A DNA stretch of 64,000 bases from Sulfolobales archaeon Acd1 (GTDB lineage: Archaea; Thermoproteota; Thermoprotei_A; Sulfolobales; Sulfolobaceae), in contig APJY01000001.1 in NCBI GenBank assembly GCA_000389735.1, forward strand, positions 310,001 to 374,000, written 5' to 3'. The notes below the pieces were generated by a model. It worked only from the letters and a program-made list of their open reading frames with translations. It was not told the origin of the DNA and did no database searches. Both the position numbers and the translations under genes were made by a program. This document shows positions 29,190-64,000 of the stretch, piece after piece. Position 1 is the first letter of the stretch. Each line of letters opens with the position of its first letter.

Positions 29190-29783
29190 CTAAACCCTCT
29201 TCTTTTCCTCCTTGCTTATCCTGTCAGCCACCTTCAAGATCCTCGGGTAACCCCTTTTCGCCAAATCTATACAGTCCTGTAGGTCCGTGAGGTTCCCGGG
29301 GGAGTAGTAGTACTTCCCCCACTTCACTCCCCTTTTCTCGCCGTCTATCACCACGTACTCTATCTCGCCCTCTCTCACGATTTCCCCAGAGAGCCTCGAC
29401 TTGGCCACGCCTATGGTGGGCACCTGGAGGAGGACTCCTATTACCGTGGCTATCCCGCTCCTCCTCGGGTGGGCCAGGCCGTGGCCGTCCACCAATATCA
29501 GGTCGCAGGAGAGGTCGTCGAGGGCCTCAAGCATCAAGGGGGCCTCCCTCATGAAGAGGAATCCCGGGATGTAGGGGAACTCAACCCTTCCCACGAACTT
29601 CCTGACCTCCAGCTTCCCTCCCTCCTCCCTTACCGCGACCGCTACGCCTAAGTCGCCCTTGTAGGCTACGTCGAGGGCGCAGAGGCTCCTCACGTTCTCC
29701 AACCCTAAGTGGGACTGCCTGTAGTTCCTCGCCACCAGGTGCTGGACGAGCTCGAGGAACCTCAGGGTGTGGGTCTCGACCAA
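29190..29783 (-). CDS. nfi: Endonuclease V
   Basis: A 197-residue protein of the Nfi family: [14 protein letters not shown] with the first metal-binding Asp, [19 protein letters not shown] (the PYIPG wedge motif), [18 protein letters not shown] with the second catalytic Asp and His, and VAKSRLSG. The enzyme nicks DNA one base after deaminated adenine (hypoxanthine), which matters at high temperature. The ATG at 29783 lies 22 bases inside the 3' end of the phosphatase gene, so the two form an operon. Confidence 0.94.
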
Positions 29784-30226
29784 GACAACTCAAGCTCAAG
29801 GAGTAGCTTGAATTGGTTAAGGGTTTGTACCGCCCCCGGCCTGTACTTCCTGACCTCCTCGACCGCCTGCTGGGCGTTGAGGCTCTCCGTAAGCATTAGG
29901 TAACCCGCTATTACGGTGCCCGTCCTGCCCATCCCGCCGACGCAGTGTACGAGGTTCCCCTTCCCCTTACCTAGCCACCTGAAGATCTCGAAGAACTGCT
30001 CTTTATTCGGGGCGTGGCCGTCGGGGATGGGGGAGTGGAGGTACTCGAAACCCTTTTCCTTGAGCAACGAGAAGTAGTACGCGGCGTTTCCCCAGGCCTC
30101 CTCGATCTCCCAGTCTTCGGCCAGCACCAACACCCTCCTGACCCCTTCGGACTTCCAGATGTCGAGCTCGTCGACGCTGTAAGGCATTTGAGAACCACCG
30201 ATGATCCCCTTCCTCACCCAGTACAA
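29762..30226 (-). CDS. Dual-specificity / tyrosine protein phosphatase
   Basis: A 154-residue cysteine phosphatase with the P-loop [10 protein letters not shown] (C95, R101) and the general-acid Asp in PIPDGHAP (D69). Length and sequence match the single-domain Sulfolobus PTP (SSO2453), which starts MYWVRR. This one starts MYWVRK from the TTG at 30226, with GAGGTG six bases upstream as ribosome site. The GTG at 30235 is an alternative. It dephosphorylates phosphotyrosine and perhaps phosphoserine proteins. It is coupled to endonuclease V by a 22-base overlap. Confidence 0.92.
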
Positions 30227-30342
30227 GCTCTTCACCTCTCAGTAGATCCGCTGCTCCTCACCGTTCAGCCTTAGCTTTCTCTATGACTCGCCACTTATAG
30301 GTTGCTATGCAGTGAGGAACGCTAACCTCGACTAAAGCCCCC

Positions 30343-32073: not shown

Positions 32074-32105
32074 CGTTTTTATGCCTAGCGGATAAGAGGA
32101 GAATT

Positions 32106-32190
32106 GCGGGGGTGCCCGAGCCAGGTCAAAGGGGGCGGACTGAGGCTCCGCTGGCGTAGGCCTGCGTGGGTTCAAGTCCCACCCCCCGCA
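32106..32190 (+). tRNA. tRNA-Leu (GAG)
   Basis: An 85-base class II tRNA with a long variable arm (TGGCGTAGGCCTGC). The acceptor stem GCGGGGG pairs with CCCCCGC, followed by A. The anticodon stem GCGGA/TCCGC encloses the loop CTGAGGC with anticodon GAG (32142-32144) for CUC codons. The T arm GTGGG-TTCAAGT-CCCAC is perfect. No intron and no encoded CCA. Confidence 0.96.
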
Positions 32191-32209
32191 TTGGGGGCTC
32201 AGCCCCCAA
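32191..32209 (+). terminator. Hairpin directly after tRNA-Leu
   Basis: TTGGGGGC (32191-32198) and GCCCCCAA (32202-32209) form a perfect 8-bp stem with a 3-base loop, beginning at the first base after the tRNA. It resembles the hairpin after tRNA-Gly and may mark the transcript end or a processing site. Confidence 0.55.
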
Positions 32210-32367: not shown

Positions 32368-32658
32368 ATGAGTCCTGGCGACATCGCGGTTTTGATCATA
32401 GTGGCACTTGTACTGTTCTTTGGGGCCAACAAGCTTCCCGAGCTGTTCAGGTCTATGGGTAGGGCAGTAGGAGAGTTCAAGAAGGGCAGGATGGAGGCCG
32501 AGTTGGAATTGCAGCAGATGCAACAGGCCTCCCAGCAGGGTCAGCAGACTCCAAATCCCCAGGTCTCAACTCAGCCCTCAAGGGAGGCCGAGTTAGAACA
32601 GAAGATAAGGGAGCTGCAGGCCGAGCTTGAGAGGCTGAAGGCCCAGAAGAGCCAGTGA
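32368..32658 (+). CDS. tatA: Twin-arginine translocase subunit TatA
   Basis: A 96-residue protein with the TatA plan: a short N-terminal membrane helix (DIAVLIIVALVLFFG), the FFGANKLPEL hinge, an amphipathic helix (FRSMGRAVGEFKKG) and a Gln-rich then coiled-coil C-terminal tail (EAELEQKIRELQAELERLKA). It forms the pore element of the Tat system, which exports folded proteins. The first of three tat genes. The ATG at 32368 follows a GGAGG site. Confidence 0.93.
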   Translation: MSPGDIAVLIIVALVLFFGANKLPELFRSMGRAVGEFKKGRMEAELELQQMQQASQQGQQTPNPQVSTQPSREAELEQKIRELQAELERLKAQKSQ

Positions 32659-32683
32659 CGGGAGGACTAAGGGAAGATGGGTT

Positions 32684-33055
32684 ATGATATCCAACTTAGA
32701 AGACACTTTAGTCATTCTTTTGGTCGCCTTACTCCTGTTTGGGGGTGACAAGAAGGCCGTAGAGTCGGTAAAGAACCTGGGCAAGATGTGGGGGGACTTC
32801 AGGAGGAGGCAAGAGGAGCTCAAGAGGGAGTTGATAAGGGAACTGAACGAGGCAGGCGAGCCGATGAGGCAAGTGGGGGGCGAGGTCTCTAAAGGAGTTT
32901 CGGAGGCCGGTCAAACTTACTACGTCAGGCCTTACTCCAACTTCACACCTGGCAACAGTGAAGAAAGGATAAGGAAATTGGAGGAGGAGATAAGGAGGTT
33001 ACAGGCCGAGCTTGAGAGGCTGAAAGCCGTTGAGCGAAAGGACGGCAAGAACTGA
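32684..33055 (+). CDS. Second TatA/TatB-like subunit
   Basis: A 123-residue protein with the same plan as the TatA before it: membrane helix (NLEDTLVILLVALLLFGG), a hinge with FGGDKKAVES, an amphipathic helix (VKNLGKMWGDFRRRQEEL) and a C-terminal coiled coil ending in IRRLQAELERLKA, nearly the same tail as TatA. An Asp/Glu-bearing N-terminus and longer tail suggest a TatB-like role in substrate recognition with TatC, but TatA and TatB cannot be separated by sequence alone. It lies 25 bases after tatA and overlaps tatC by 26 bases. Confidence 0.85.
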   Translation: MISNLEDTLVILLVALLLFGGDKKAVESVKNLGKMWGDFRRRQEELKRELIRELNEAGEPMRQVGGEVSKGVSEAGQTYYVRPYSNFTPGNSEERIRKLEEEIRRLQAELERLKAVERKDGKN

Positions 33056-34287: not shown

Positions 34288-35082
34288 ATGAGGAGGCTTT
34301 CTACGGGAATACCTCAGTTCGATGCCCTCATTGAGGGCGGTGTGCCGGAGGGGTTCTTCGTCGCCCTCACAGGCGAGCCCGGCACCGGAAAGACCATATT
34401 CTCCCTTCACTTCGTGGCACAGGGCCTTAAGGAGGGTGATCCGTGCATTTACGTCACTACCGAGGAGAGCAGGGAGTCCATAATAAGGCAGGCCAAGCAG
34501 TTCAATTGGGACTTCGAGGAGCACATGGAGAAGAAGCTCATCATAATAGACGCGTTAATGCGGGAGAGGGAGGACGAGTGGTCACTGATGGAGCTCACTC
34601 CCGAAGAGTTAGTCCAGAAGGTCATACAGGCCAAGCAGAAGCTGGGATACGGTAAGGCGAGGCTCGTTATCGACAGCGTCTCCGCCCTCTTCTTGGACAA
34701 ACCCGCCATGTCCAGGAAGATAAGCTATTACCTGAAGAGGGTGCTGAACAAGTGGAACTTCACCATTTACGCCACCTCACAATACGCCATAACCACGAGC
34801 CAGGCCTTCGGCTTCGGAGTAGAGCACGTGGCTGACGGCATAATAAGGTTCAGGAGGGCCGTGAGGGGAGGAGAGCTCAGGAGGTTTATCTTGATAGAGA
34901 AGATGAGGCAGACCAACCACGACAGGCACGTTTGGGAGATAGACGTCAAGCCCGGAAGGGGGATAGTGTTGGTTAGGAGGCTTGAGGAGAGGAGGGAGGA
35001 CTACGCTCTGCCCAGGGACGTCCAGGAGAGGATCAAGCGGGCCAGCGAGATCAACGAGAGGTTCATCCCTGAGGACGTCTGA
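34288..35082 (+). CDS. KaiC-like RecA-superfamily ATPase
   Basis: A 264-residue single-domain ATPase. It has Walker A GEPGTGKT (29-36), FVAQGLKEGDPCIYVTTEES (KaiC-type strand), Walker B LVIDSVSALFLD, and a C-terminal FRRAVRGGELRRFILIEKMR beta-hairpin. It belongs to the archaeal KaiC/RadA-paralogue group (aRadC-like), proposed to act in recombination control or signalling; the precise role is unknown. The ATG at 34288 has only a weak upstream promoter. Its last 69 bases are part of an 81-bp sequence repeated exactly at 36216-36296, so the gene itself is intact while its 3' end has been duplicated downstream. Confidence 0.9.
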   Translation: MRRLSTGIPQFDALIEGGVPEGFFVALTGEPGTGKTIFSLHFVAQGLKEGDPCIYVTTEESRESIIRQAKQFNWDFEEHMEKKLIIIDALMREREDEWSLMELTPEELVQKVIQAKQKLGYGKARLVIDSVSALFLDKPAMSRKISYYLKRVLNKWNFTIYATSQYAITTSQAFGFGVEHVADGIIRFRRAVRGGELRRFILIEKMRQTNHDRHVWEIDVKPGRGIVLVRRLEERREDYALPRDVQERIKRASEINERFIPEDV

Positions 35083-35094
35083 GGTCGTTGGCCT
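35014..35094 (+). repeat. Direct repeat, left copy (3' end of KaiC-like gene)
   Basis: Eighty-one bases identical to 36216-36296, offset 1202 bp. The copy covers the last 69 bases of the KaiC-like gene, including its stop, plus 12 bases beyond. Identity extends three bases further left with one mismatch (C at 35013, T at 36215). It marks the left border of the AT-rich block. Confidence 0.98.
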
Positions 35095-35158
35095 CAGGAT
35101 AGGCTAACTTGGCTGAGATTCCTGTAAACCCAGCACCTAATATTATTGTCCTAACCAT
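35095..35158 (-). pseudogene. Truncated start of a flavoprotein/NAD(P)-binding oxidoreductase gene
   Basis: From the ATG at 35158 the minus strand reads MVRTIILGAGFTGISAKLAY, a Rossmann start with the dinucleotide-binding motif GAGFTG. This is typical of FAD/NAD(P)-dependent oxidoreductases of the sulfide:quinone reductase or NDH-2 type. After about 21 codons the sequence runs into the 81-bp direct repeat and hits a stop inside it, so only the first 7 percent or so of a normal gene remains. It is a cut slice, not a functional gene. Confidence 0.65.
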
Positions 35159-35295
35159 TATAACTTATTTTCATAACTGCTACCTTATACATGTTATCTA
35201 CAATACTTTTCTACAATTTCTTTTAGGATCTGAAAATATAGAAAATTGTATAATTGAACTATTTAATAAAAATTGTTAGCTTAAAAGGAAATAGC

Positions 35296-35907
35296 TTACA
35301 AAATAGGGGGAACCCACTTTGAGAAGCCTACTAAATGTTCTGGGACAGCTGCAATTCCTATATAGGCGGCGATTATTCCCGCAAGTATTAGTAATATTGC
35401 GTCTATAATTAGGAAAATCTTTCCATATTTGGCACCGTCAAGGAATAATGACACTGGATAGAAAAATATCGAAGCTAATCCGGTTAATGCATATAACGCA
35501 AGTAATGCTGCTGGTTCTAAAGTCATATTGTGCATGAAACCAATTACGCCATAATAAATCGTTACTAATCCAAACAATATAGCCATAAAGCCTAAGTGTT
35601 CAAGTTTATAGTCGTTCTTTATACTAACTGCTATTCCAATTAGTCCTAAACCTAATACCGGATATAAGTCGTAGAAAAGTATATTGTAGCTACCAGGTAG
35701 GGGCCACGTCATCAAACCATAAAGGCCGGTAATGGCCATAAGCCCTCCTAGTGTAAGTAAAGGAATGTATTGAGCTTTCAGAGAATTCCTATAATCCGTT
35801 ACAGTACTATGAACTCTATAGGTTTTAATTAAACCGTAAGCCAATGTTATGAAAGCGATTGCCATAACTATTAACTGATTAGTAAGTATATCTACGAATA
35901 ACGCCAT
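35296..35907 (-). CDS. DUF981-like membrane protein
   Basis: A 203-residue protein with six predicted membrane helices. The segment GLYGLMTWPLPGSYNILFYD (then LYPVLG) is characteristic of the DUF981 family (PF06168), archaeal and bacterial membrane proteins of unknown function. A GGTGA ribosome site lies just before the ATG at 35907. The codon choice is AT-rich throughout (many ATA, TTA, AAT), unlike every gene outside the block, which points to recent transfer from an AT-rich Sulfolobales relative such as Sulfolobus or Acidianus. The frame is intact. Its original operon partners on either side are truncated. Confidence 0.82.
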   Translation of the reverse strand: MALFVDILTNQLIVMAIAFITLAYGLIKTYRVHSTVTDYRNSLKAQYIPLLTLGGLMAITGLYGLMTWPLPGSYNILFYDLYPVLGLGLIGIAVSIKNDYKLEHLGFMAILFGLVTIYYGVIGFMHNMTLEPAALLALYALTGLASIFFYPVSLFLDGAKYGKIFLIIDAILLILAGIIAAYIGIAAVPEHLVGFSKWVPPIL

Positions 35908-35944
35908 TCACGGTCACCAATTATAATTGTCTCATCTAAAGTAT

Positions 35945-36212
35945 TTATACCTTAGCTAAAGCGCATACACTATTTGTAACTATAAATTCTTCTACGCCGC
36001 TTTTATCTATCTTCTCTTTCTTAGCCTTCATAACTAAATCGGAAAGTTTAGGATGTGAAAGCCAATAATCACTACCTGCACCGCACTCAAAATAAGGATC
36101 CTCCATTTCGCTTATTTTAACGCCGAGTCTTAAGGCTAATTCTTTTATCTACTTCGTAAGTCCTTGCCTATATGCATGACAAGGATAATGGGATAGTAAA
36201 TGTCACATTTAT
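35945..36212 (-). pseudogene. C-terminal remnant of an Fe-S oxidoreductase (CCG domain)
   Basis: The minus-strand reading gives HLLSHYPCHAYRQGLTK, a TAG stop (36149-36151), then IKELALRLGVKI, EDPYFECGAGSDYWLSHPKL and EEFIVTNSVCALAK, ending at TAA (35945-35947). PCH and ECGAG with a final VTNSVC are the landmarks of the cysteine-rich CCG domain found in heterodisulfide reductase B, LutA and glycolate oxidase Fe-S subunits. The start of the gene is missing beyond the repeat border, and an in-frame stop breaks the rest. An ATG at 36106 would allow a 53-residue peptide. Confidence 0.75.
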
Positions 36213-36215
36213 CCT

Positions 36216-36296
36216 AGGGACGTCCAGGAGAGGATCAAGCGGGCCAGCGAGATCAACGAGAGGTTCATCCCTGAGGACGTCTGAGGTCGTTGGCCT
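36216..36296 (+). repeat. Direct repeat, right copy
   Basis: An exact 81-bp copy of 35014-35094, here detached from the KaiC-like gene. It leads directly into host-type sequence with the promoter of the nicotinamidase-like gene. Together the two copies look like the left and right junctions of an integration at a gene 3' end. Confidence 0.98.
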
Positions 36297-36349: not shown

Positions 36350-36949
36350 ATGACGAAAGTAGAGGTTCCTCAAATTAACAGGGTTCAGAAGGTGGAGCTC
36401 AGGCCCTCGGACACAGCGTTGCTAATAGTGGACATGCAGAACGACTTCGTCGACCCCAAGGGCGCCCTATTCGTGCCCTCCTCCAGGAACTCCGTCGAGC
36501 CGATCAGGAGGTTGATAACTAAGTTCAGGGAGGCAGGGGCCTTGGTGATATACACCCAGGACTGGCACATGAAGGACGACCCGGAGTTCAAGATCTGGGG
36601 GGTCCACGCCGTGGCGGGCACGTGGGGGGCGGAGATAATAGACGAGCTGAAGCCCGAGAAGGACGACATAACGATCAAGAAGTACAGGTACGACGCGTTC
36701 TTCGAGACCCCTTTGGATTACGTGCTGAGGGTCAAGGGGATAAGGAACCTGGTGGTGGTTGGCACCGTAGCCAACATCTGCGTGCTCCACACGGCCGGCT
36801 CGGCGGCCTTGAGGTGGTATAACGTTGTCGTCCCGGAGGACGGGATATCGGCCCTGACGGAGTTCGACCAGATCGCCGCGCTCAGGCAAATAGATTTCCT
36901 TTATAAGGGTAAGATAACCACGAGCGACGGAGTGGTTTTAACCGTATGA
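36350..36949 (+). CDS. Isochorismatase-family hydrolase, probable nicotinamidase
   Basis: A 199-residue cysteine hydrolase with the catalytic triad D28 (VDMQNDF), K111 (IKKYRYDAFF) and C144 (NICVLHTA). D71, H73 and H86 are placed as metal ligands as in nicotinamidase/pyrazinamidase PncA. It would release nicotinic acid and ammonia from nicotinamide for NAD salvage. The metal-ligand set favours nicotinamidase over other isochorismatase-like enzymes. The ATG at 36350 lies about 30 bases after AAAGTATTTTTG. Its stop overlaps the next ATG (ATGA). Confidence 0.87.
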   Translation: MTKVEVPQINRVQKVELRPSDTALLIVDMQNDFVDPKGALFVPSSRNSVEPIRRLITKFREAGALVIYTQDWHMKDDPEFKIWGVHAVAGTWGAEIIDELKPEKDDITIKKYRYDAFFETPLDYVLRVKGIRNLVVVGTVANICVLHTAGSAALRWYNVVVPEDGISALTEFDQIAALRQIDFLYKGKITTSDGVVLTV

Positions 36950-37917
36950 AGTGGGTCGCGATAGTCCACAACGACTTCGACGGGACTGCGAGCGCCGCCG
37001 TTTACGCCAGGGCGGTGGGGGAGCTACCGACTTCTTCTCTCTTTACAGAGCCTACCAGGCTGGGGAAGCTCCTCCAGGGCTTCGAGCTCAGGGATGCGAA
37101 AAGGATAGTCATAGCTGACCTGGGGATAAACGCCTCAACCTTCGACGTGATCCTGAAGGAGGTCAAAAGGCTCGTATCCCAGGGGGCTGAGATTCAGTGG
37201 TTCGACCACCACGTGTGGAAGGAGGAATGGAAGAAGACGCTGTCTGAGGTCGGAGTTCAGGTCTATCACGACACCACTACCTGTGGGGCGGGAGTGGTCC
37301 ACAAGGTTATGAACCCTAACGACGAAGTGTCGGAGGTTATAGCGAGGGCTGACTGTAGCGTCGACATTTGGCTACACGACTACCCGCTGGGGGAGAAGCT
37401 GAGGAGGGTGATAGAGAACAGGAGGGAGTTCGAGTGGAAGAGGCACGTGATGGAGAAGTTCTTCAGGGGTGTAGTTTGGGATGAGGAGTTCGAGAGGATC
37501 CTGATCGAAACAGCCAACAGGGAGCTCAAGGGCTACAACGGGCTCAAGGACTACGCTAGAGTGATAGAGGTGAACGGGGTGAGAGGTGTGGTAGCGGTCA
37601 GGTGGAAGGGGCCTCCGGACATAAGCTACGCGAGCCAATACCTGATGGCGAGGACTGGGGCCAAGTTCTACGCCTCCGTGAACGGCAAGAGCATCTCCTT
37701 CAGGAGCTCCAGCATAGAGGTGAGGAGGTTCGCCGAGGCCTTGGGTGGGGGAGGCCATCCCTTAGCTGCGGGGGCCGGGCTAAAGGCCCCCCTACTGAAG
37801 TACGTCCTTTACAAGTTGGGCTACAGGAAGCCGATGCTCGACTGGGCCGTTAAAGTGGTGGAGGAAACCGTGAGGAAGGTAGGGATAGTCGAGTATCAGA
37901 AGACCAAGGCTCAGTAG
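36946..37917 (+). CDS. DHH-family phosphoesterase
   Basis: A 323-residue protein with the N-terminal DHH domain motifs IVHNDFDGTASA (first Asp pair), IADLGIN and FDHHVWKEEW (the DHH triad), and a C-terminal DHHA1 domain with the glycine-rich nucleotide-binding loop GGGGHPLAAGA. Related enzymes are NrnA-like nanoRNases, c-di-AMP phosphodiesterases and RecJ-like nucleases; the archaeal substrate is uncertain. It is coupled to the nicotinamidase-like gene through an ATGA overlap. Its 3' end overlaps the convergent pcm gene by 7 bases. Confidence 0.88.
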   Translation: MKWVAIVHNDFDGTASAAVYARAVGELPTSSLFTEPTRLGKLLQGFELRDAKRIVIADLGINASTFDVILKEVKRLVSQGAEIQWFDHHVWKEEWKKTLSEVGVQVYHDTTTCGAGVVHKVMNPNDEVSEVIARADCSVDIWLHDYPLGEKLRRVIENRREFEWKRHVMEKFFRGVVWDEEFERILIETANRELKGYNGLKDYARVIEVNGVRGVVAVRWKGPPDISYASQYLMARTGAKFYASVNGKSISFRSSSIEVRRFAEALGGGGHPLAAGAGLKAPLLKYVLYKLGYRKPMLDWAVKVVEETVRKVGIVEYQKTKAQ

Positions 37918-55109: not shown

Positions 55110-55502
55110 TTAGATAACCTCGACTCCGTGTCTTCTGGCGAGGCCCTTCAGCGCCTTGTCCTTCGTAGCTAAAGGCGATTCGCTCTCTATGGCGTGAGCC
55201 AAAATCACGACATCGTTGTATCTCGATAAGCTGAGCCTTTCCTTGATCAGTATTTCTAGAGCTCTACCTATGACGTCATCGCTGTCGCACAGTACTTTAG
55301 CCTTCTCGTTAGTTACGTAACTTTTCACGTACTCCGCGTTACCGATTCCGTTAGCTCTCAGGAACCAGGCGAACTCATGAATAACTATGGAGGGGATCAG
55401 CCATTCCTCGAGGCTGTCCAATAACTTCTCGGCCTCTTTATGGAACTCCGAGTCCTCCACTAGGTCGTAAATAAAAACGTTCGTGTCAATGACCGCCCTC
55501 AT
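55110..55502 (-). CDS. PIN-domain toxin, VapC family
   Basis: A 130-residue PIN-domain ribonuclease. Conserved acidic residues can be seen in VIDTNVFIYDL (first Asp), the middle acidic stretch CDSDDVIGRALE, and YNDVVILAHAIE with the third Asp. It cleaves RNA when freed from its antitoxin. The 5' end overlaps the antitoxin gene by 17 bases, as in the common VapBC arrangement, which makes many such pairs in Sulfolobales. Confidence 0.92.
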   Translation of the reverse strand: MRAVIDTNVFIYDLVEDSEFHKEAEKLLDSLEEWLIPSIVIHEFAWFLRANGIGNAEYVKSYVTNEKAKVLCDSDDVIGRALEILIKERLSLSRYNDVVILAHAIESESPLATKDKALKGLARRHGVEVI

Positions 55503-55713
55503 TTAAACCCCTTTCTATGTCCCTTTCGATCTCCTCAACAGTCAACCTCCTTCCCAACCTAATTCTCGGTCTAACTGGTGAAAGCTTCTTAATTATAATC
55601 TTGTCATCTTCTATATGAAATTCCAAGATATCCCCCTCGTGTATGCCCAGCCTGTTCCTTATGGACGCGGGGATTGTAACCTGGTAGTTCCTAGTGACCT
55701 TTACCCTTTCCAT
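55486..55713 (-). CDS. AbrB-family antitoxin, VapB
   Basis: A 75-residue protein. The N-terminal swapped-hairpin AbrB/SpoVT domain (KVTRNYQVTIPASIRNRLGI) binds DNA and its C-terminal tail (EEIERDIERGLNEGG) wraps the toxin. It represses its own operon. The ATG at 55713 is exactly 26 bases from the centre of a strong TATA box, so the message is leaderless. Confidence 0.92.
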   Translation of the reverse strand: MERVKVTRNYQVTIPASIRNRLGIHEGDILEFHIEDDKIIIKKLSPVRPRIRLGRRLTVEEIERDIERGLNEGGH

Positions 55714-55732
55714 GTCTTACTACTTGATCTAG

Positions 55733-55744
55733 TTATATATAAAC
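55733..55744 (-). promoter_or_regulatory. TATA box for vapBC
   Basis: GTTTATATATAA on the minus strand is centred 26 bases before the ATG at 55713. This is one of the clearest promoters in the window. Confidence 0.7.
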
Positions 55745-55983
55745 CTTTCTAGTAATACACTCAGTCGAGGCATTCCGCATGTTATTGTAGGGCGTCTACA
55801 CGTCTTTCGATCGTGTTCCGATTAAAAAAGAAACGATAAAGGCTCCGGAACTTCTTAAAAGAGTACTAGGGGTGATTATCGATTATTACGATCGATGAAC
55901 TGGCTGACCTCCTCGAATAGGACGCACGATTAATATGTACGTCGCGTAGGGTGACTTAGCCGACTCCCCACACTTTTAGGATT
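55745..55983. other. Gene-free spacer between vapB and the secreted-protein cluster
   Basis: No gene of credible length is seen. It contains an imperfect TCGAT-N7-ATCGA inverted repeat (about 55877-55893). It also contains short start-less fragments with coding-like sequence (for example ELLKRVLGVIIDYYDR on the plus strand), perhaps remnants. It marks the border where GC content begins to fall to the right. Confidence 0.35.
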
Positions 55984-57321
55984 TTAACCTATCACGTACG
56001 TATTAGTACCGTTCTCGGGAATGTAGTAGACGTCTGGGTAGTTCGTCGTATAAGAAGGCCAATACCACAGTATGCCGATCAGTTGAGGTGGAGGATTATC
56101 ATAAGGCCAGACGAAGTACCAATAGGCTAAGGCGTTAAGACTCGGATTATGCGCGATGGTCCAGTTGAATAAATAAGTATTATTGTATAGAGGTCCGTTA
56201 CGAATGGCGATATTCGAGACGTTAAAGAACGGGTTAATACTTCCTGTATTCTGAATAGTATCTATGAAGGCTTGAGAAATCCCGTTCGATACAGTTTTAG
56301 ATCCGAAAGTAAGGATCAAGGTATATCCGTTTATCTCCGAAGGCAGACCCATTATCGTAGAATTGAGTAGTTGACCTTGTTCGTTATATATCGTGAATTC
56401 CGTAGCTTGACTTAAACCGAATTTCGAACCGCTCGTGAAGTTGATGAAATACGACTGCCCAGCTTTCAGGTTATTATATAGTAGATTCACTGTCCCAGAT
56501 ATATTCACGTAAACTGAAGAGCCTTGCGTATACAGTATAACCGAGAACTCTTTCCCAACGCTGTTACCCGTTGGTATAAAAGTGGCGTTCAACAAAGGTG
56601 TGGGGCTTTGTTGTATATTTGTGACTTTGAACCACATGCCTAGTTGAAAGCCGGTTTGAGAAATGTATATGTGTGGTGTCGGGTTATTTAAAGTACCGCT
56701 GTAACCCTTGTTTATACCGCTACCTGTAACAATATAAACACCGACGCCGCTACTGAACGGGCTCAAATAAACGTAATCCAGCCTGTACCATTTGCCATCG
56801 TAATAATATAGAAGCCACACCATGATTATCTGACTCGGCCTTACGACAGCAGACAAAACATAGGTAGAGTTACTACTTACGTTATACGCTACAACGTGTA
56901 TATTGGCTAAAGGTTGCTCTCCTTGCGGTAGATATACAGTAGCGTTCAAATTGAAGGGACGTAAACTGGAATAGCCGTTTAAACTGGAGGTGAACAAAGA
57001 GGCGTTCTGGGAGCTCGAAGGAAATATATACGACGGATTAGGCTGTGAAGACGCGACGAAAGCAACGACCGTCACGGTCTTGGTGGGCGACTGAATCCAT
57101 ATCATGTAGCTCACGTTAAAATAGTGGTAACAAGGCGGTAGACCTGCATAAGTCGGTTGTGAGACTTCGACGCTGATAAGCTTCGATATTCCAATAAGAT
57201 ACTCTTGTACGGATACAGTATAATACTGGTTAGAGAACGAGACGGAATAGAGCGCGAAGGCACCAAGCGCCAGGACCAACGTCGCTATTAAAAGCAGTAT
57301 CGCTATAACTGAGCTTTCCAT
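55984..57321 (-). CDS. Large secreted or pilin-like surface protein
   Basis: A 445-residue protein: a single N-terminal hydrophobic helix (about 5-27) with no basic leader, like a type IV pilin or signal-anchor protein, then a long Ser/Thr/Asn/Tyr-rich beta domain with many glycosylation sequons (NVS, NAS, NST, NGT). No catalytic motif is seen, and only one late cysteine pair region is possible. It is divergent from the pilin-like operon, sharing a palindrome-bearing promoter region. A TATA box (57345-57352) lies 27 bases before the ATG. Not recognised as a known family; an adhesion or filament-associated role is inference. Confidence 0.8.
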   Translation of the reverse strand: MESSVIAILLLIATLVLALGAFALYSVSFSNQYYTVSVQEYLIGISKLISVEVSQPTYAGLPPCYHYFNVSYMIWIQSPTKTVTVVAFVASSQPNPSYIFPSSSQNASLFTSSLNGYSSLRPFNLNATVYLPQGEQPLANIHVVAYNVSSNSTYVLSAVVRPSQIIMVWLLYYYDGKWYRLDYVYLSPFSSGVGVYIVTGSGINKGYSGTLNNPTPHIYISQTGFQLGMWFKVTNIQQSPTPLLNATFIPTGNSVGKEFSVILYTQGSSVYVNISGTVNLLYNNLKAGQSYFINFTSGSKFGLSQATEFTIYNEQGQLLNSTIMGLPSEINGYTLILTFGSKTVSNGISQAFIDTIQNTGSINPFFNVSNIAIRNGPLYNNTYLFNWTIAHNPSLNALAYWYFVWPYDNPPPQLIGILWYWPSYTTNYPDVYYIPENGTNTYVIG

Positions 57322-57329
57322 TGTGCAAA

Positions 57330-57341
57330 TTTCACGTGAAA
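57330..57341. promoter_or_regulatory. Palindrome TTTCACGTGAAA over the divergent promoter
   Basis: A perfect 12-base palindrome sits between the TATA box (57345-57352, minus strand) and the start codon (57321) of the secreted-protein gene, right where transcription begins. A repressor bound here would block the gene. A partial copy TTTCACGTG occurs near 6474-6482. Confidence 0.5.
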
Positions 57342-57442
57342 ATTACATATAAGGTTTTTGTGATTTATTGGAATGATAGTAGCATTAAGCGTGGGAGAAA
57401 TATATATAGTTGTTACGACCGTTATATTACAGGGCTAAATTA

Positions 57443-57712
57443 ATGTTTGAGTTCATTACGGCGTTACTTACGATCGAGGAGGCTTTTAGCGTAGCCGAAC
57501 GACGGGCTAATTCTTCGTCCTTCTTGTCATTAGCTTCAGTGGAATCTTTACTGAGACAAAGCGGAACAGAGAGTGATGTAGCTGGATTATTTGGTGGACT
57601 AGCTTCCGAACTCTTTATCTCCTCACCTATTCACGCTTTAAGGATATTAGGCAATAGCGGTAGATATTCGCTCAGAGCGGGCAATACTTTCATCGGGGTG
57701 GCTCTACCGTGA
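57443..57712 (+). CDS. Small first-gene protein of the pilin-like operon
   Basis: An 89-residue protein of unknown family: an N-terminal hydrophobic segment MFEFITALLTIEEAFSVA and helical continuation, then Gly/Ser-rich stretches (LRQSGTESDVAGLFGGLASE). A TATATA box (57399-57407) is about 40 bases upstream of the ATG at 57443, giving a short leader. The alternative TTG at 57410 would lie inside the promoter. Its stop overlaps the GTG of the large pilin-like gene by 4 bases. It could be a chaperone or regulator of the operon; there is no evidence to choose. Confidence 0.6.
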   Translation: MFEFITALLTIEEAFSVAERRANSSSFLSLASVESLLRQSGTESDVAGLFGGLASELFISSPIHALRILGNSGRYSLRAGNTFIGVALP

Positions 57713-59289
57713 GAGGACTATCGACAATAGTCATCGCGATAATTCTCCTCTTGTTGATCTTGCTGGTCGTAGTTCCGGCCTTCATCATCTTAAACTCTGT
57801 CCCCGTGTACAGTTCTCAAGCCAAAACCTCTAACGAAGGCGTTTCCGAACTGGCGTCCGAGCAAAACAACCAAGTTTTCAGGGGGAATCCCAACGTCTAT
57901 TACAACTCCTCCACTAACCCATCGTTGCAATTCATGTTCGAATCAGTCGCGGCTCCCTTTAACATAACGCAGATATACTACTTCAACGGAACCGTGTGGG
58001 TTCCTATACTGAATCAAAGCGTGCTGGTGGTGGCTTATAACGCTACTCTACCGTTGCCTAAGCAGGCTTTCAACAAACCCATAATTATCGTAACCGGCTA
58101 CGGTAACATCTACTTCCTCAACCCGAACACATCAATAACGACAATAACGATTTCCGGACCGGCTGGCAAAGTTCCGGTTTATATAGTGGCTTTCGTAGTG
58201 AACGGCAGTAAATTCATCCCCATCAGCTTATCAGTAACGTTTCAGGGTTATTTATCGTTCCTGACACCCAAAGTATTGTACGTCGATCCAGGGACTTACT
58301 CTGTGGCTATCAAGAACTCCAGCACGATATTCCTACCTTATTACGGGTTGACCGCCGTGTTTCAGAACTGGAGCATAGCAGGATACGGGACAGTAAGCAA
58401 TCCGAAATCATTATCTACAACTTTCACAGTCACGGGAGCGGCGGTACTCACCGCAATCTACAAGGCTTACCCACAGAAGTTCACGGTCAAGATCGTACCG
58501 TCGAATATACCCTTGGGGACCACTATTACTCAAGGAGGAGCTTCGCTGACTTCGCTTAACTCCACCATCCCAGTGATCGTCGACAATCGCACGTATTACG
58601 TCGGAAGTTCTGGAATCACTTTGAACTTGACTTACGGGTATCACATTATTCAGTTCCCGACTCAGTACAACATAACGTTTAACTACAAGTATAACAGTTT
58701 CAATCTTAATGGAGGAGAAATAATGTGTTATCAATTCAGTGGGTTGAGTTCGAGCACTAGTGAAATCAAGATTATAAATAGCAACACGGTGTTCGTCAAC
58801 TCGTCTGGAACTATATACGGTAACTATAAGCCGGTGCAAACGTATTACTTAGTAGTGGTCAAAAACAACTTTTACTTCCCACCGTATGTGAAGCTGATTA
58901 GTAACACGACGCCAGTGCTGGGTAACATTGCGGGTCAATTGTTGCAGGCAAATGTTGTGGGAACTTCGACTAGCATAGCATTAGGCCCGGTGAAGAACTA
59001 TGAGCCACAACGAATATACTTCAAAGCCGGAACTAGCCTAAACTTCGTAGTGGATTATATGAATACAATCTGCAACCAAAAGATCGTACTATTCGATAGA
59101 GGAATCACACAGACTTTCTACGGACTTCTAGGATCGTCTTCATCCACAGTAGTCGTCTATACTCCCTATGGTAGCACTCAGTATTCTGTAGACGCATACT
59201 TCGGTTATTACGGCACTCTTACCGTTAATTCACCCGTAATAATTGTGAATAATCAGCAATGGGTATATAGTGGTGTTCCTGCCGGTTAG
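57709..59289 (+). CDS. Giant pilin-like surface protein
   Basis: A 526-residue protein with a class III signal peptide: leader MRG then LSTIVIAIILLLLILLVVVP, for cleavage by PibD. About 480 residues of Thr/Ser/Asn/Tyr-rich beta sequence follow, far longer than typical pilins (120-200). Two cysteines (EIMCYQF and NTICNQK) could form a disulfide. A segment NKPIIIVTGYGNIYFLNPN has a counterpart, GRPIIIVTSLGNVYFLQPG, in the next protein, and other blocks align too, so the two are paralogues. It is cotranscribed from 57443 to 61166. Confidence 0.85.
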   Translation: MRGLSTIVIAIILLLLILLVVVPAFIILNSVPVYSSQAKTSNEGVSELASEQNNQVFRGNPNVYYNSSTNPSLQFMFESVAAPFNITQIYYFNGTVWVPILNQSVLVVAYNATLPLPKQAFNKPIIIVTGYGNIYFLNPNTSITTITISGPAGKVPVYIVAFVVNGSKFIPISLSVTFQGYLSFLTPKVLYVDPGTYSVAIKNSSTIFLPYYGLTAVFQNWSIAGYGTVSNPKSLSTTFTVTGAAVLTAIYKAYPQKFTVKIVPSNIPLGTTITQGGASLTSLNSTIPVIVDNRTYYVGSSGITLNLTYGYHIIQFPTQYNITFNYKYNSFNLNGGEIMCYQFSGLSSSTSEIKIINSNTVFVNSSGTIYGNYKPVQTYYLVVVKNNFYFPPYVKLISNTTPVLGNIAGQLLQANVVGTSTSIALGPVKNYEPQRIYFKAGTSLNFVVDYMNTICNQKIVLFDRGITQTFYGLLGSSSSTVVVYTPYGSTQYSVDAYFGYYGTLTVNSPVIIVNNQQWVYSGVPAG

Positions 59290-59299
59290 GGGTGATAGT

Positions 59300-60685
59300 A
59301 TGCTTAACAAAGGCCTCTCGAACGCGGTTTCGTTCATAATAATCATATTACTATTAATATCATTAGCGATACCGGTTCTGTATTATCTCATGAACTTATC
59401 TCAAGCTAACGTCAACAACGCGTTAATCTCGAACAACTACATCTACTTAAAGGAGCTACAGAACAAACAGGTGACCACCGGACACCCTTCGTTCTTTTAC
59501 AGCGGTAATTATATATATGTCGAGTACACTAACGGTACTTTCGTACCTCGGAGTAACATGACAATTGTGGGTATCCTATACTTAAGTAGTAACGGTCTGT
59601 GGGTCAATGTAACTGACTTAAAGTACCCCATCGTGTTGAGTAACAATCAAGCCCTGCAACTACCTTCCTACGTAAAAGGTAGACCTATAATTATCGTGAC
59701 CTCTTTAGGCAATGTTTACTTCCTGCAACCCGGCTCCGCAATAGGGCCTTATTCCTCTACAGTAAGCGCTGGTGGAGTAGAAATACTGACTCAAATATAT
59801 ACTCCCAGCGGCCCTATAATGGTCTCTACAAATGTTACTACTAACATCACCGGGACCTTTAAGAACTACACGACACCGGTCAGTTTTCCGAACACGACAG
59901 GTACGTTCGTAGTAAAGGCGCCGCAATACGTGTACTATCAGGAACCGAACGGTAGCATCATTACGGGTGTGTTTAAGGATTGGGTGCTAATAGGTAAAGC
60001 CGCAGTAAACGGGACCAACACGCTCGCCATACGAGTGACTCTAGAGAACAGTCCACTAGTATTAGTAGCGAACTACACTCCGTTACGGTCGTATATCTCA
60101 TTAACTATACAAACCACCGATAAAAACGTAGGGGTGCAAGTATCCGTTGACGGACGTCCCTACACCGTGTACGGAAGCGCTACAATACAAATTCCCGCCG
60201 GTTACTTCAACGTGACGGTGTTAACGCTGCAGTTCAACGACACTACGCAAAAAGGAAACGGCGTCATCAAATATTACACGTTCAAGAACATACAGTATAA
60301 CGGAAAGACTTACGTTACTTATTCAGCGATACTGTTCGCTCCTCCGAATACGAGTGAAACGCTCTACATCAATTATGTCAATAAATATAATTACTATTAT
60401 GTGACTTTTAATGGCTACAATTTGCCGGGACAAGTGAACGTCATACTGAACGGCACGGTGTATAATTACGGGCAATCCTATTGGATAATAGGCGGTAACT
60501 ACAGTGCCTCTTATACGGGCATATTCAACGGAATTTACACTTATGGCGTAAGAACTTTACAAATTGTCACTCCGCAAGGTTCTCAAACCTACAATTTCCC
60601 CAACATACCACCGTACTTATATATAAGTTCTACAATGACGGTAAACGCTTACTACGGAATCACGTATAAATGGTATCCTTTATAG
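59300..60685 (+). CDS. Second giant pilin-like surface protein
   Basis: A 461-residue protein from the ATG at 59300, which follows a GGTGAT ribosome site; the longer GTG frame from 59270 would overlap the previous gene. The N-terminus MLNKGLSNAVSFIIIILLLI is a class III signal peptide (cleavage after KG). The remainder is Asn/Thr/Tyr-rich beta domain with over a dozen glycosylation sequons and no cysteine. It is a paralogue of the upstream 526-residue protein. Low charge and heavy glycosylation suit an acid-resistant extracellular filament or adhesin. Confidence 0.85.
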   Translation: MLNKGLSNAVSFIIIILLLISLAIPVLYYLMNLSQANVNNALISNNYIYLKELQNKQVTTGHPSFFYSGNYIYVEYTNGTFVPRSNMTIVGILYLSSNGLWVNVTDLKYPIVLSNNQALQLPSYVKGRPIIIVTSLGNVYFLQPGSAIGPYSSTVSAGGVEILTQIYTPSGPIMVSTNVTTNITGTFKNYTTPVSFPNTTGTFVVKAPQYVYYQEPNGSIITGVFKDWVLIGKAAVNGTNTLAIRVTLENSPLVLVANYTPLRSYISLTIQTTDKNVGVQVSVDGRPYTVYGSATIQIPAGYFNVTVLTLQFNDTTQKGNGVIKYYTFKNIQYNGKTYVTYSAILFAPPNTSETLYINYVNKYNYYYVTFNGYNLPGQVNVILNGTVYNYGQSYWIIGGNYSASYTGIFNGIYTYGVRTLQIVTPQGSQTYNFPNIPPYLYISSTMTVNAYYGITYKWYPL

Positions 60686-60695
60686 GGGAGAAAGA

Positions 60696-61166
60696 ATGAG
60701 GGCGCAGTCAGAATACATCGGCTTAATAACATTAGTTATCATAATGGTCATAATATTAATTCCGTTATATTTGTTGCTAATCAACTACCAGGTACCCTCA
60801 GCTAAGAAATACGACTACGCTGGCATAATAAACAAGCAAGTTAACGGAGGAGGGATATTGATATTCTTTAATTCGACTCCTACCAACACACCTTATCTAG
60901 TGGTTTTCAAAGGAAACGGTAACTACACTTTGACAGCCGTGTACTACGATAAAAAAGGCGTATGGTACAACATAACCTCGGCTGTTGAAGCGGTCAAATT
61001 CACGGTCTCTAAGCCACAGACTGTTGGAGGGCTACCCCAACCCTTGATATATAACTTCTCACTACCTCAATACGTGTGGAATTACACCTTAGTCTTGGAG
61101 ATCGAAGGCTTCAACACAACTGTCTTCGCCACCATATATCCGAACGAGACCGCGTTCGCCCCGTGA
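60696..61166 (+). CDS. Small pilin-like protein
   Basis: A 156-residue protein. The N-terminus MRAQSEYIGLITLVIIMVII resembles a class III signal peptide with cleavage near A3, and a Glu at position 6 (mature position 3 or so) recalls the conserved Glu5 of type IV pilins. The beta domain VFKGNGNYTLTAVYYDKKGV and others follow. It is the normal-sized pilin of the operon. GGGGAGA lies just before the ATG as ribosome site, 10 bases after the previous stop. It could be the main filament subunit or a minor tip pilin along with the two giants. Confidence 0.8.
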   Translation: MRAQSEYIGLITLVIIMVIILIPLYLLLINYQVPSAKKYDYAGIINKQVNGGGILIFFNSTPTNTPYLVVFKGNGNYTLTAVYYDKKGVWYNITSAVEAVKFTVSKPQTVGGLPQPLIYNFSLPQYVWNYTLVLEIEGFNTTVFATIYPNETAFAP

Positions 61167-61187
61167 GTTTTTCCCAAATTTATGTAC

Positions 61188-61193
61188 TTTTTT
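61188..61193 (+). terminator. T-run ending the pilin-like operon
   Basis: Six T residues (61188-61193), preceded by another five (61168-61172), follow the last pilin-like gene. The next gene is convergent and ends at 61241, so transcription probably stops here. Confidence 0.4.
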
Positions 61194-61240
61194 CATTGAA
61201 AGGTTGAGGAGTTAGAAAGACAAACCTCTAAAGAAGCGAC

Positions 61241-62059
61241 CTATTTCGCCATTCTTCTAGCTATTACGAACACTATCGTAACGATGGTTATTAGCACTAA
61301 AGACGCCCCCCAGGCTACGTCGTTCAAGTTCGGGTAACCGCTGAACGCGTAAGTGTATATCAGTACCGGTATTCCGGTAACGGGCGTAGTGAAAGACTGT
61401 AAGTAGAGGTTCGCTGTGGAGGAAGTGAGGAAAATTACTGGGGCCGTCTCGCCTATTATCTTAGCGAAGCCTATCAACAGACCGTTTACCATCCCTCTTC
61501 TTCCTATGCGCATGATTAATTTCATTACTTGCCAGGTGGTTAAACCGAGGGAGTAGGCCGCCTCCTCATAGAGCTTCTTCGGTATTCTCAGGGCTTCGCT
61601 GATCTGTATAGTCGAGTAGGGCAACATGACGATTGCCAACGCCGTAGCAGCCGTGATCCCGTTCAATCCTAAACCGAACTCTACGACGAGGATTTCGAAT
61701 ACGACTATACCTACGACAATAGTCGGGAACTCCACCAACAGCTCTAAACTCGCTCTGATCGAGCTAGCTATCTTTGACCTCTCGAAGAACGAAAGGAAAA
61801 CTCCGGCGAATATGGAGATGGGAGCCGAGATCAGCACGGCTAGGGAGACCATGTACAGGGAGCCCTCTAGAGCTGGACCTATGCCGCCTAACCCTTGGCC
61901 GGGATTAGGAGGCAAATCTACAAAGAATCCGGGCCCGTAGCTGATTATAACCTTCAGTCCGTTAACTATTACAGTGTAGAAAAGGAACGCTATAGGAAGC
62001 AAGAATAATACAACTAATGACGTTATAATTGAGACTATTACGGCGTCTTTTACTCTCAA
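61241..62059 (-). CDS. pstA: Phosphate ABC transporter permease PstA
   Basis: A 272-residue permease with six helices. GPALEGSLYMVSLAVLISAP marks the start of the BPD_transp_1 domain. The EAA loop EEAAYSLGLTTWQVMKLIMR contacts PstB, and the following GETAPVIFLTSS is PstA-specific. It overlaps pstC by 4 bases (ATGA). No pstB follows, and the next gene to the left is on the other strand. Codon use is lower in GC than in most of the window, like the pilin-like cluster beside it. Confidence 0.93.
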   Translation of the reverse strand: MRVKDAVIVSIITSLVVLFLLPIAFLFYTVIVNGLKVIISYGPGFFVDLPPNPGQGLGGIGPALEGSLYMVSLAVLISAPISIFAGVFLSFFERSKIASSIRASLELLVEFPTIVVGIVVFEILVVEFGLGLNGITAATALAIVMLPYSTIQISEALRIPKKLYEEAAYSLGLTTWQVMKLIMRIGRRGMVNGLLIGFAKIIGETAPVIFLTSSTANLYLQSFTTPVTGIPVLIYTYAFSGYPNLNDVAWGASLVLITIVTIVFVIARRMAK

Positions 62060-62940
62060 AGTCTCACCCTCAGAATCAACCTAGATATTATCACGAAAGC
62101 AATCCCTATTACGACGAGGAACAACGCGAGCGCGAACATCACGTTGTACTGGATTCCGTACGCGGTTCCGAACTGACTGATGATCAAAGACGGTATCGTG
62201 TAGCCCGGGTCGAGCAGGTTCGGTGAGATGTTCAGTATGTTGCCTATTGTAAGGCTCACCGCCACGGTTTCCCCGACAGCTCTTCCGAACGCTAGTGCGT
62301 ACGCACCTAAGAAGGCCCTTTTAATGTAGGAAAGCTTCAGCACAACTAACTCCCATTTACCTAAACCTAGGGAGTACACGGCCTCGTCAACGGACTTAGG
62401 GACCTGAGAGTAGACTTCCCTGAGGAGGGAGGATGCGAACGGCGTTATCATTATCGCCAACACTATTGAGGCCAGTAATATGCTGGGTCCGTTAGTGATC
62501 CGGTGAAGCCCGAAGAGGGAGTCCAAAAACGCGAACAGCGTGTGGGATAAAAACGGGCCGAGCGACAGAAGACCCCAGAACCCGTATACCACTGTAGGAA
62601 AGGCCGCGAGGAGATCGGAAAGGTTAATTATGAAGCTTTTGATTTTTTTAGGAGAAATATCGTTAACGAAAACGGCAATAGCCGTAGCGAAGGGCGCGGA
62701 TATCGCCACGCTCAGCACTCCCGTCACTACCGTACCGTAAATCGCAGCTAAACCACCGTACTGGTCATTAACAGGATCCCATACGTTTCTAGTGTAAATC
62801 GAAAGACCGAATCTGCCCAGTGCAGGAATAGAACTGTAAACCAATGCACTCAGCAACGACATAAAGGTTAATACTACTAGGGAGGATGGTATAAGTAGAA
62901 AGTAAAAAATTCTTTCTCTTTTTCTCTTGAGTATCATCAC
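62056..62940 (-). CDS. pstC: Phosphate ABC transporter permease PstC
   Basis: A 294-residue permease with six helices. The EAA loop is DEAVYSLGLGKWELVVLKLS, and FGRAVGETVAVSLTIGNI is the PstC/PstA GETxA motif. YGFWGLLSLGPFLSH is typical of PstC. It begins 2 bases after the pstS stop, at GTG 62940 or ATG 62937, with GGTGAG upstream. With PstA it forms the membrane channel for phosphate. Confidence 0.93.
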   Translation of the reverse strand: MMILKRKRERIFYFLLIPSSLVVLTFMSLLSALVYSSIPALGRFGLSIYTRNVWDPVNDQYGGLAAIYGTVVTGVLSVAISAPFATAIAVFVNDISPKKIKSFIINLSDLLAAFPTVVYGFWGLLSLGPFLSHTLFAFLDSLFGLHRITNGPSILLASIVLAIMITPFASSLLREVYSQVPKSVDEAVYSLGLGKWELVVLKLSYIKRAFLGAYALAFGRAVGETVAVSLTIGNILNISPNLLDPGYTIPSLIISQFGTAYGIQYNVMFALALFLVVIGIAFVIISRLILRVRL

Positions 62941-62942
62941 TT

Positions 62943-64000
62943 CTAGCTCACCATAGTGTAGACGGGCATGTTGTTGTAAGATATTAACTTGAGATTTTCT
63001 AGAACTAGTTGTTGAATGTTTGACGGTAACGGGAGGTAACCCGTTGGTAGTTCAGTCTGACCCGTGGTTACCATGTACTTCAGGAATAGGTAGATCGCTT
63101 CTGCCTTAGACTCATCGCTGTAATTGACCTTTACGACTAGCCACGAAAACGTCACTATAGGGTAGGCGTTGTGCGCTTTAACGTTCAGGAAGACTGAGAG
63201 ATACTGAGACAAGTCTTTCGTCAGTGATGATGGAAGTTGAGTTAGATTGGCGTTCTGAACCGCGGTCTCTATGGAAGCTTGACTCGGCTTAACGTACTCG
63301 CCGGTGGACGGGTTCAACACAGCCGCTGCAGTTAAGTTATTCGCTATCGCGTACTGTGCCTCGACGTAGCCAATTGAATATGGGTTTTGTTTTACGTACG
63401 CTGTAACTCCATCGCTTCCCTTACCTCCTAACCCGTTTCCGAGCTGATCAACAGGCCAGTTAACGGTGAAACCGTAACCAACGCCTGAGCTCCTCCAAGA
63501 CTGGGACGAGATGTAGAGCCAGTATGTGAAGACGAAGGTGGTACCGCTACCGTCGCTCCTGTGAACCGCTATTATCTTCTGGTGAGGGAAGTTGAAATTA
63601 GGATTCAACGCCTTTATGGCTGGATCGTCCCAGTACTGAATCTGCCCCAGATAGATCTTCGCTAAAACGTCAGCCGTCAAGTTCAAGGTGCCAGTGAAGC
63701 CTGGAATGTTGTATATTATGTCTACTGCACCCACCACATCGGGGATCGTGAGAATCTCACCGTACTTTTGAGTTAATTGTTGATACAAATTACTGGGCGG
63801 GGGGACATCCGTGGCTCCTATGTCATAAGCACCTTGTAAGAAGTTGTTCACACCCGCTCCACTGCCCACCGCGCTATAAGTCACTTGGATTCCGGGATAC
63901 TTCGACTGAAAGTCCTTTATCCAAACCTGCATGGCCGGATTGACAAACGTGGATCCACCGGCTACGATGCTCGCCGAGATCTGTGGTGGGGCCGTAGTTG
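62943..64000 (-). CDS. pstS: Phosphate-binding protein PstS, cut by the window edge
   Basis: The frame runs unbroken to the right edge (at least 352 residues seen), so the N-terminus with the signal or lipobox is missing. Recognised pieces are the phosphate-binding start SIVAGGSTFVNPAMQVWIKD, VGSGAGVNNFLQGAYDIGATDV, and HRSDGSGTTFVFTYWL, in which Ser/Asp/Gly and Ser/Thr residues bind phosphate as in bacterial PstS. It delivers phosphate to PstC/PstA. It is the first visible gene of the pst operon, and the promoter lies beyond the window. Confidence 0.93.
   Translation of the reverse strand, partial: TTAPPQISASIVAGGSTFVNPAMQVWIKDFQSKYPGIQVTYSAVGSGAGVNNFLQGAYDIGATDVPPPSNLYQQLTQKYGEILTIPDVVGAVDIIYNIPGFTGTLNLTADVLAKIYLGQIQYWDDPAIKALNPNFNFPHQKIIAVHRSDGSGTTFVFTYWLYISSQSWRSSGVGYGFTVNWPVDQLGNGLGGKGSDGVTAYVKQNPYSIGYVEAQYAIANNLTAAAVLNPSTGEYVKPSQASIETAVQNANLTQLPSSLTKDLSQYLSVFLNVKAHNAYPIVTFSWLVVKVNYSDESKAEAIYLFLKYMVTTGQTELPTGYLPLPSNIQQLVLENLKLISYNNMPVYTMVS

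Follow-up and report, generated by a model that had tools for sequence, protein, structure and literature searches.

How did the 3' end of an intact gene for a KaiC-like ATPase come to stand twice in the chromosome of a Sulfolobales archaeon, with about 1.1 kb of foreign DNA between the two copies? In the window, by which we mean the whole 64,000-nucleotide stretch of DNA that was analysed, the left copy (35014-35094, plus strand) and the right copy (36216-36296, plus strand), both defined by sequence identity, agree over 81 bp without a mismatch, and the repeat grows to 84 bp if one mismatch is allowed (CCC at 35011-35013 versus CCT at 36213-36215). Its first 69 bp are the final 22 codons and the TGA of the KaiC-like gene (34288-35082, plus strand; Pfam PF06745, E 3.7e-57), and the remaining 12 bp lie 3' of the stop. 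This gene belongs to the host and stays intact, its 3' end being the duplicated target, and the right copy runs on into host sequence, where a gene of the isochorismatase/nicotinamidase family (pncA; 36350-36949, plus strand; PF00857, E 4.2e-43) is the next host gene. The original prediction, which had described an exact 81-bp direct repeat made of the last 69 coding bases plus 12 more, with the gene intact on the left and ordinary host sequence beyond the right copy, was correct on each of these points. A joint scan of the window and 260 kb of adjoining chromosome, 324,000 contiguous bases, found no other exact direct repeat that reached 24 bp with its copies 100-20,000 bp apart, and this one is therefore not a product of chance.

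The DNA between the repeat copies is foreign by composition, at about 35% GC versus 54% GC for the chromosome. In steps of 300 bp, the three that fall completely within the insert (35100-35999) have 32-37% GC and those completely outside it 51-61%, while each of the three pieces described below has 34-38%, compared with 53.7% for the 324 kb overall. Searched as DNA against 31 family genomes, the organism's own included, the insert found its best match in G030, a genome from another genus of the family, in three separate pieces: insert positions 1-94 (90% identity), 76-875 (92%) and 859-1118 (94%). In G030 each of them is on the minus strand, at 1932519-1932428 (piece A), 1931295-1930492 (piece B) and 1925860-1925602 (piece C), and they follow one another in the window in the same order and orientation as in the donor, which by simple arithmetic three random pieces would do by chance in 2 of 48 cases. 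The insert is thus collinear with ~7 kb of the G030 chromosome, with ~1.1 kb and ~4.6 kb left out.

Piece A (35095-35167) holds the start of an oxidoreductase (FAD/NAD-dependent) gene and sequence upstream of it; 67 of 69 bases match G030 over 35095-35163, and its right limit is uncertain by ~5 bp. Piece B (35168-35951; 736 of 804 aligned positions identical to G030) carries the tail of an MFS-type gene and a whole DUF981 gene with its upstream region. Piece C (35952-36215; 255 of 272 aligned positions identical) is the 3' part of a GlpC-like Fe-S/CCG-domain gene and is decayed: compared with G030, it has one inserted base and a stop codon in frame. The genes of the donor stretch (oxidoreductase, MFS-type transporter, DUF981, lipoate-related and GlpC-like, all named from their ORF sequences except DUF981) look like ordinary chromosomal genes. 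In all seven donor-genus genomes, of which G030, G024, G026, G021, G005 and G014 were recognized by DNA match and G028 by a DUF981 remnant together with a DNA match, a distance of 4.1 kb or more separates pieces B and C, so the skip between them is not the normal arrangement of the donor genus. A match to piece A was found in just two of the seven, G030 itself and G026, where it spans 50 bp and sits, oppositely oriented, 4.1 kb away from piece B.

The one intact gene of the insert (35296-35907, minus strand; PF06168, E 1.3e-54) encodes a DUF981 membrane protein of 203 aa and is the sole DUF981 match in the organism's own genome. Its protein is 96% identical to that of G030 (dN 0.017, dS 0.24), and most of this divergence may be older than the capture; in a scan of DUF981 in named genomes, covering 75 loci, none was closer than 56% identity. 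A candidate TATA-like element, GTATAAATA, can be seen in the sequence upstream of the gene, inside piece B. Given the in-frame stop and the 1-base insertion in piece C, some time has probably elapsed since the capture; the 81-bp copies are nonetheless still identical.

The host genes on either side have a history of their own. KaiC-like genes were matched in 23 family genomes, in 22 of which the best match is 70-84% identical, the remaining one being 74% identical over a fragment at a contig end. Among 29 relatives' loci (L003-L031, the organism's own L002 being left out of the count), pncA lies divergently upstream of kaiC in 16. Relatives with an empty site, in which kaiC would be followed directly by pncA, had been proposed as a check on the insertion; within 1.5 kb flanks pncA is downstream of kaiC in none of the 29, and these relatives cannot show such a site because the kaiC-pncA neighbourhood has itself been rearranged. 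Among seven longer loci, five have kaiC transcribed divergently from an operon that comprises two further genes together with pncA and a DHH gene, an arrangement absent from the other two loci; in the window those two further genes are at 29190-30235, with pncA and DHH behind kaiC (36350-37917). Judged from these comparisons, the order of kaiC and pncA in the window is a derived, lineage-specific rearrangement. The left copy enters donor DNA, so kaiC must originally have been flanked by the sequence that now follows the right copy, provided that the rearrangement came before the capture; the two may also have been a single complex event.

The split of the operon here, with two genes 4-6 kb to the left of kaiC and the pncA-DHH pair behind it, looks like an inversion together with inserted tat genes. 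Two TatA-like genes with a common coiled-coil repeat adjoin tatC at 32368-33055 (TatA is named by reading only, TatC by Pfam), and a tRNA-Leu gene lies beside them at 32105-32191. The one further repeat family of at least 30 bp in the window is found within these tat-like genes, at 32.6-33.0 kb, in copies that are 63-82% alike.

A three-way comparison of host, G030 and window places both outer joints at short stretches of common sequence. At the host-to-donor joint the host reads TTGGCCT and the donor ATAGCCTCAGG, with GCCT (35091-35094) common to both, and at the donor-to-host joint the donor reads TTTATCCTAGGCAC and the host CTGCCCAGGGAC, with AGG (36216-36218) common to both (CC.AGG, 5 of 6 positions). 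Host-donor identity is confined to GCCT and AGG, and both ends were joined without extended homology. These lengths are approximate and were read post hoc, as the true donor is 6-10% diverged from G030. The same comparison shows the outer 3-4 bp at both joints to be common to the donor as well, so that the host stretch truly duplicated is about 74-81 bp, and the lone mismatch of the 84-bp repeat is explained by the T at 36215, which is a donor base. When host and donor positions were paired at random in 200,000 draws, 1.5% agreed over at least 4 bp and 4.7% over at least 3 bp, and in 0.3% two joints together reached 7 bp or more; these figures are likewise post hoc and based on the proxy donor. 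The internal joints, A/B (~35164-35175) and B/C (~35950-35953), have only ~0-1 bp of clear identity, read against a proxy donor that is 90-94% identical. Beyond both joints G030 bears no likeness to the kaiC 3' end, whose 81 bp are thus not at the donor ends, and the host therefore supplied both copies, as far as G030 represents the donor.

From this sequence evidence we think it probable that the scar arose by microhomology-mediated capture of imported chromosomal DNA from another genus. The mechanism that we infer from this one scar would begin with the entry of donor-cell DNA, for example by a DNA-import route of the Sulfolobales. A break or stall at the 3' end of kaiC would have set off repair that crossed into the donor at GCCT, copied or joined pieces A, B and C in order, and came back into host sequence at AGG, some 80 bp behind its point of exit; this backward return would have left the direct repeat. 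The DUF981 gene would thereby have been delivered intact with its upstream region, and piece C would have decayed since. Alternatively, a break with staggered ends of ~80 nt that were filled in, and to which a donor fragment was end-joined, would give the same sequence. We lean slightly towards serial template switching over this kind of end joining, since a single step then accounts for the skips as well as the backward repeat, and the complex order of the MMBIR type, with several skips and a duplication behind the break, is present. Internal deletions after insertion appear equally allowed by the sequence, and the skips could be such later deletions or could have existed already in the donor strain. 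Against the capture reading stand the ~0-1 bp of microhomology at the internal joints and the fact that this is a single scar, no second repeat-flanked insert having been found in the 324 kb.

What is known of repair and DNA uptake bears on this in several ways. In the MMBIR model, as outlined in PMC2621351, junctions carry 2-5 bp of microhomology, and a duplication results when the switch is to the sister at a point behind the break. Ku (PF02735) was not found in the organism's own genome, which is 93.5% complete, by a model that in a control set matched 1 of 14 genomes, Bacillus subtilis; having no Ku match, the genome does not point to Ku-dependent NHEJ. Archaeal alternative end joining is, in the account given by PMC8708640, reported only from Haloferax and S. 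islandicus, with the enzymes described as unknown. The Ced system is presented in PMC9905601 as importing DNA in Sulfolobales, and aggregation through Ups pili is described in PMC7064770 as species-specific and as favouring mating within the species, which argues against easy import from another genus.

The rival explanation that survives best divides the history into separate events: a staggered break whose overhangs of ~80 nt were filled, a donor fragment joined in by end joining so that the target was duplicated with no transposase involved, and later two deletions that spared DUF981. This would give an identical final sequence, unrelated deletions might well leave internal joints without clear microhomology, and the decay of piece C beside an intact DUF981 gene indicates that time has passed. 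It requires an unusually long staggered break, however, and three events in place of one. We regard it as possible, at somewhat below an even chance, and this figure overlaps with the one that we give to the capture reading, of which it is a sub-model.

If a circle had already carried the donor pieces along with the 3' end of kaiC, one homologous crossover with the chromosome would have doubled the shared 81 bp into a perfect direct repeat. Such a composite circle would need to have existed beforehand, though, no such molecule was found in the plasmid or viral collections, and 81 bp would give ordinary homologous recombination little length to work with; we consider this origin highly improbable. 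Very little likelihood also attaches to an artefact, whether a k-mer join during assembly or chimeric molecules from DNA amplification. The genome is indeed a draft of 8 contigs, and amplification chimeras can likewise show microhomology, but the locus lies inside a single contig of 848,744 bp, neither three collinear donor pieces nor the disabling changes in piece C would be expected, and the surrounding 324 kb holds no other such repeat. As a k-mer-length assembly artefact in particular, which would not place three collinear donor pieces between the copies, the locus seems unlikely to be explained.

The original prediction had read the 81 bp as attL and attR flanking DNA integrated at a gene 3' end, here in a protein gene and without an integrase; on this reading the element would have lost its integrase or used one supplied in trans. 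SSV-type integrases at tRNA genes yield attL and attR, and here as there the 3' end of a gene is doubled around an insert, the gene end stays intact and a long exact direct repeat flanks the incoming DNA; here, in contrast, the gene encodes a protein, the cargo is a mosaic of chromosomal DNA, and there is no element, attP or integrase. Foreign DNA behind kaiC and the doubling of ~81 bp are thus the parts of the proposal that stand. The attL/attR part fails because the attP of an element must carry the 81 bp and the donor ends do not: no att core was found on the incoming DNA at the G030 ends, and the insert consists of donor chromosomal pieces with internal skips. Pfam searches of the insert ORFs returned DUF981 only, the two short ORFs having no family, and no integrase, transposase or mobile-element family among them, in agreement with the absence of an integrase as predicted. 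Phages and plasmids (by blastn) and viral contigs (by a 45-base pattern), where the 81 bp had been suggested to occur, gave no match at the sensitivity used, nor did a search of the viral contigs at the protein level. We therefore reject site-specific integration, which is already largely refuted and in our view has next to no probability. A transposon or IS insertion is rejected as well, given the lack of a transposase family, a duplication of ~81 bp that is, as the original prediction had held, too long for a transposition target duplication, and no inverted-repeat pair (0 of 7) with arms at the two insert ends.

With site-specific integration and transposition failing, capture by illegitimate recombination is the class left, and its kind of event is already known elsewhere. 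Double illegitimate recombination, known from the natural transformation of Acinetobacter, usually deletes or swaps host DNA and brings in one short patch; heterologous DNA is joined there, as here, at both ends via a few bases, whereas the present locus has a target duplication and three patches. The rearrangements described under MMBIR/FoSTeS in PMC2621351 resemble ours in their microhomology at some joints, skips, unlinked insertion and duplication behind the break, but concern human and E. coli DNA, while this is a natural inter-genus archaeal capture with little microhomology at its internal joints. Closer in lineage is the microhomology-mediated gene inactivation of S. islandicus (Zhang and Whitaker 2018, as cited in PMC6249222, PMC6712394 and PMC8708640), in which, as far as these citations describe it, linear DNA brought into Sulfolobales cells is joined by means of short homology, with engineered arms of 35-40 bp versus 3-4 bp at the kaiC insert. 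Breakpoints of HGT in gut microbiomes were reported by LocalHGT to have a mean of 3.1 bp of microhomology, with end joining named as a driver (PMC11317153); these transferred segments too are joined by short microhomology, but they come from a read-based gut survey, and ours is one resolved scar with target duplication. In the literature that we searched, mostly by listing, we found no case of template-switch HGT in archaea or of repeats around an insertion in a Sulfolobales protein gene, and no resolved archaeal case of this sort.

A second mosaic of donor-genus DNA lies past the end of the window, at L181:2691-6788 (G000:C1:376691-380788 in the organism's own genome). It has two pieces with a 2-bp gap between them, G000:C1:376691-379518, which is 89% identical to G030:C1:477602-474798, and G000:C1:379521-380788, which is 90% identical to G030:C1:454786-453518; they have the same orientation and are ~20 kb apart in G030. 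Read from their ORFs, the first piece carries three genes resembling a metal- or vitamin-uptake ABC transporter and the second an ATPase gene. No flanking repeat of at least 24 bp was found, and the second piece had no match in another donor-genus genome among the matches listed, so the 20-kb gap may be particular to G030; as a second case the mosaic is only suggestive. Beside it, L181:6854-8232 has many diverged copies across the family genomes, up to 91% identical to G018, and is probably made up of insertion-sequence remnants.

Other low-GC islands occur in the same 324 kb, a subset of which was searched as DNA in four queries. A run of them spans 55401-63300 of the window, with the lowest GC over 500 bp at 38-42%; from 54.5 to 64 kb only two G030 matches were found, at 67-69%, and none was donor-like above 69%. 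Matches to C1:460500-462200 reached only 66-76% in the four genomes searched, and of the 31 family genomes searched, the 30 besides the organism's own gave no DNA match to the island at G000:C1:552600-554000 (L189:18600-20000).

At this locus inter-genus DNA capture has left a well-preserved scar with target duplication, and the mechanism first proposed for it was wrong; a tempting misreading, that of an att site in a protein gene, is thereby corrected. A broader proposal, that Sulfolobales repair templates on the imported DNA of other genera during microhomology-driven template switching, strikes us as conceivable but rather unlikely. Were it true, foreign genes would arrive without any mobile element, as shortened, collinear patchworks accompanied by a short duplication of host sequence, and the two-piece mosaic ~30 kb farther on would be a second product. 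The scar itself offers a natural base-level record that chromosomal DNA can cross archaeal genera without a mobile element and, being resolved, makes the capture of foreign DNA in Sulfolobales by end joining or template switching testable.
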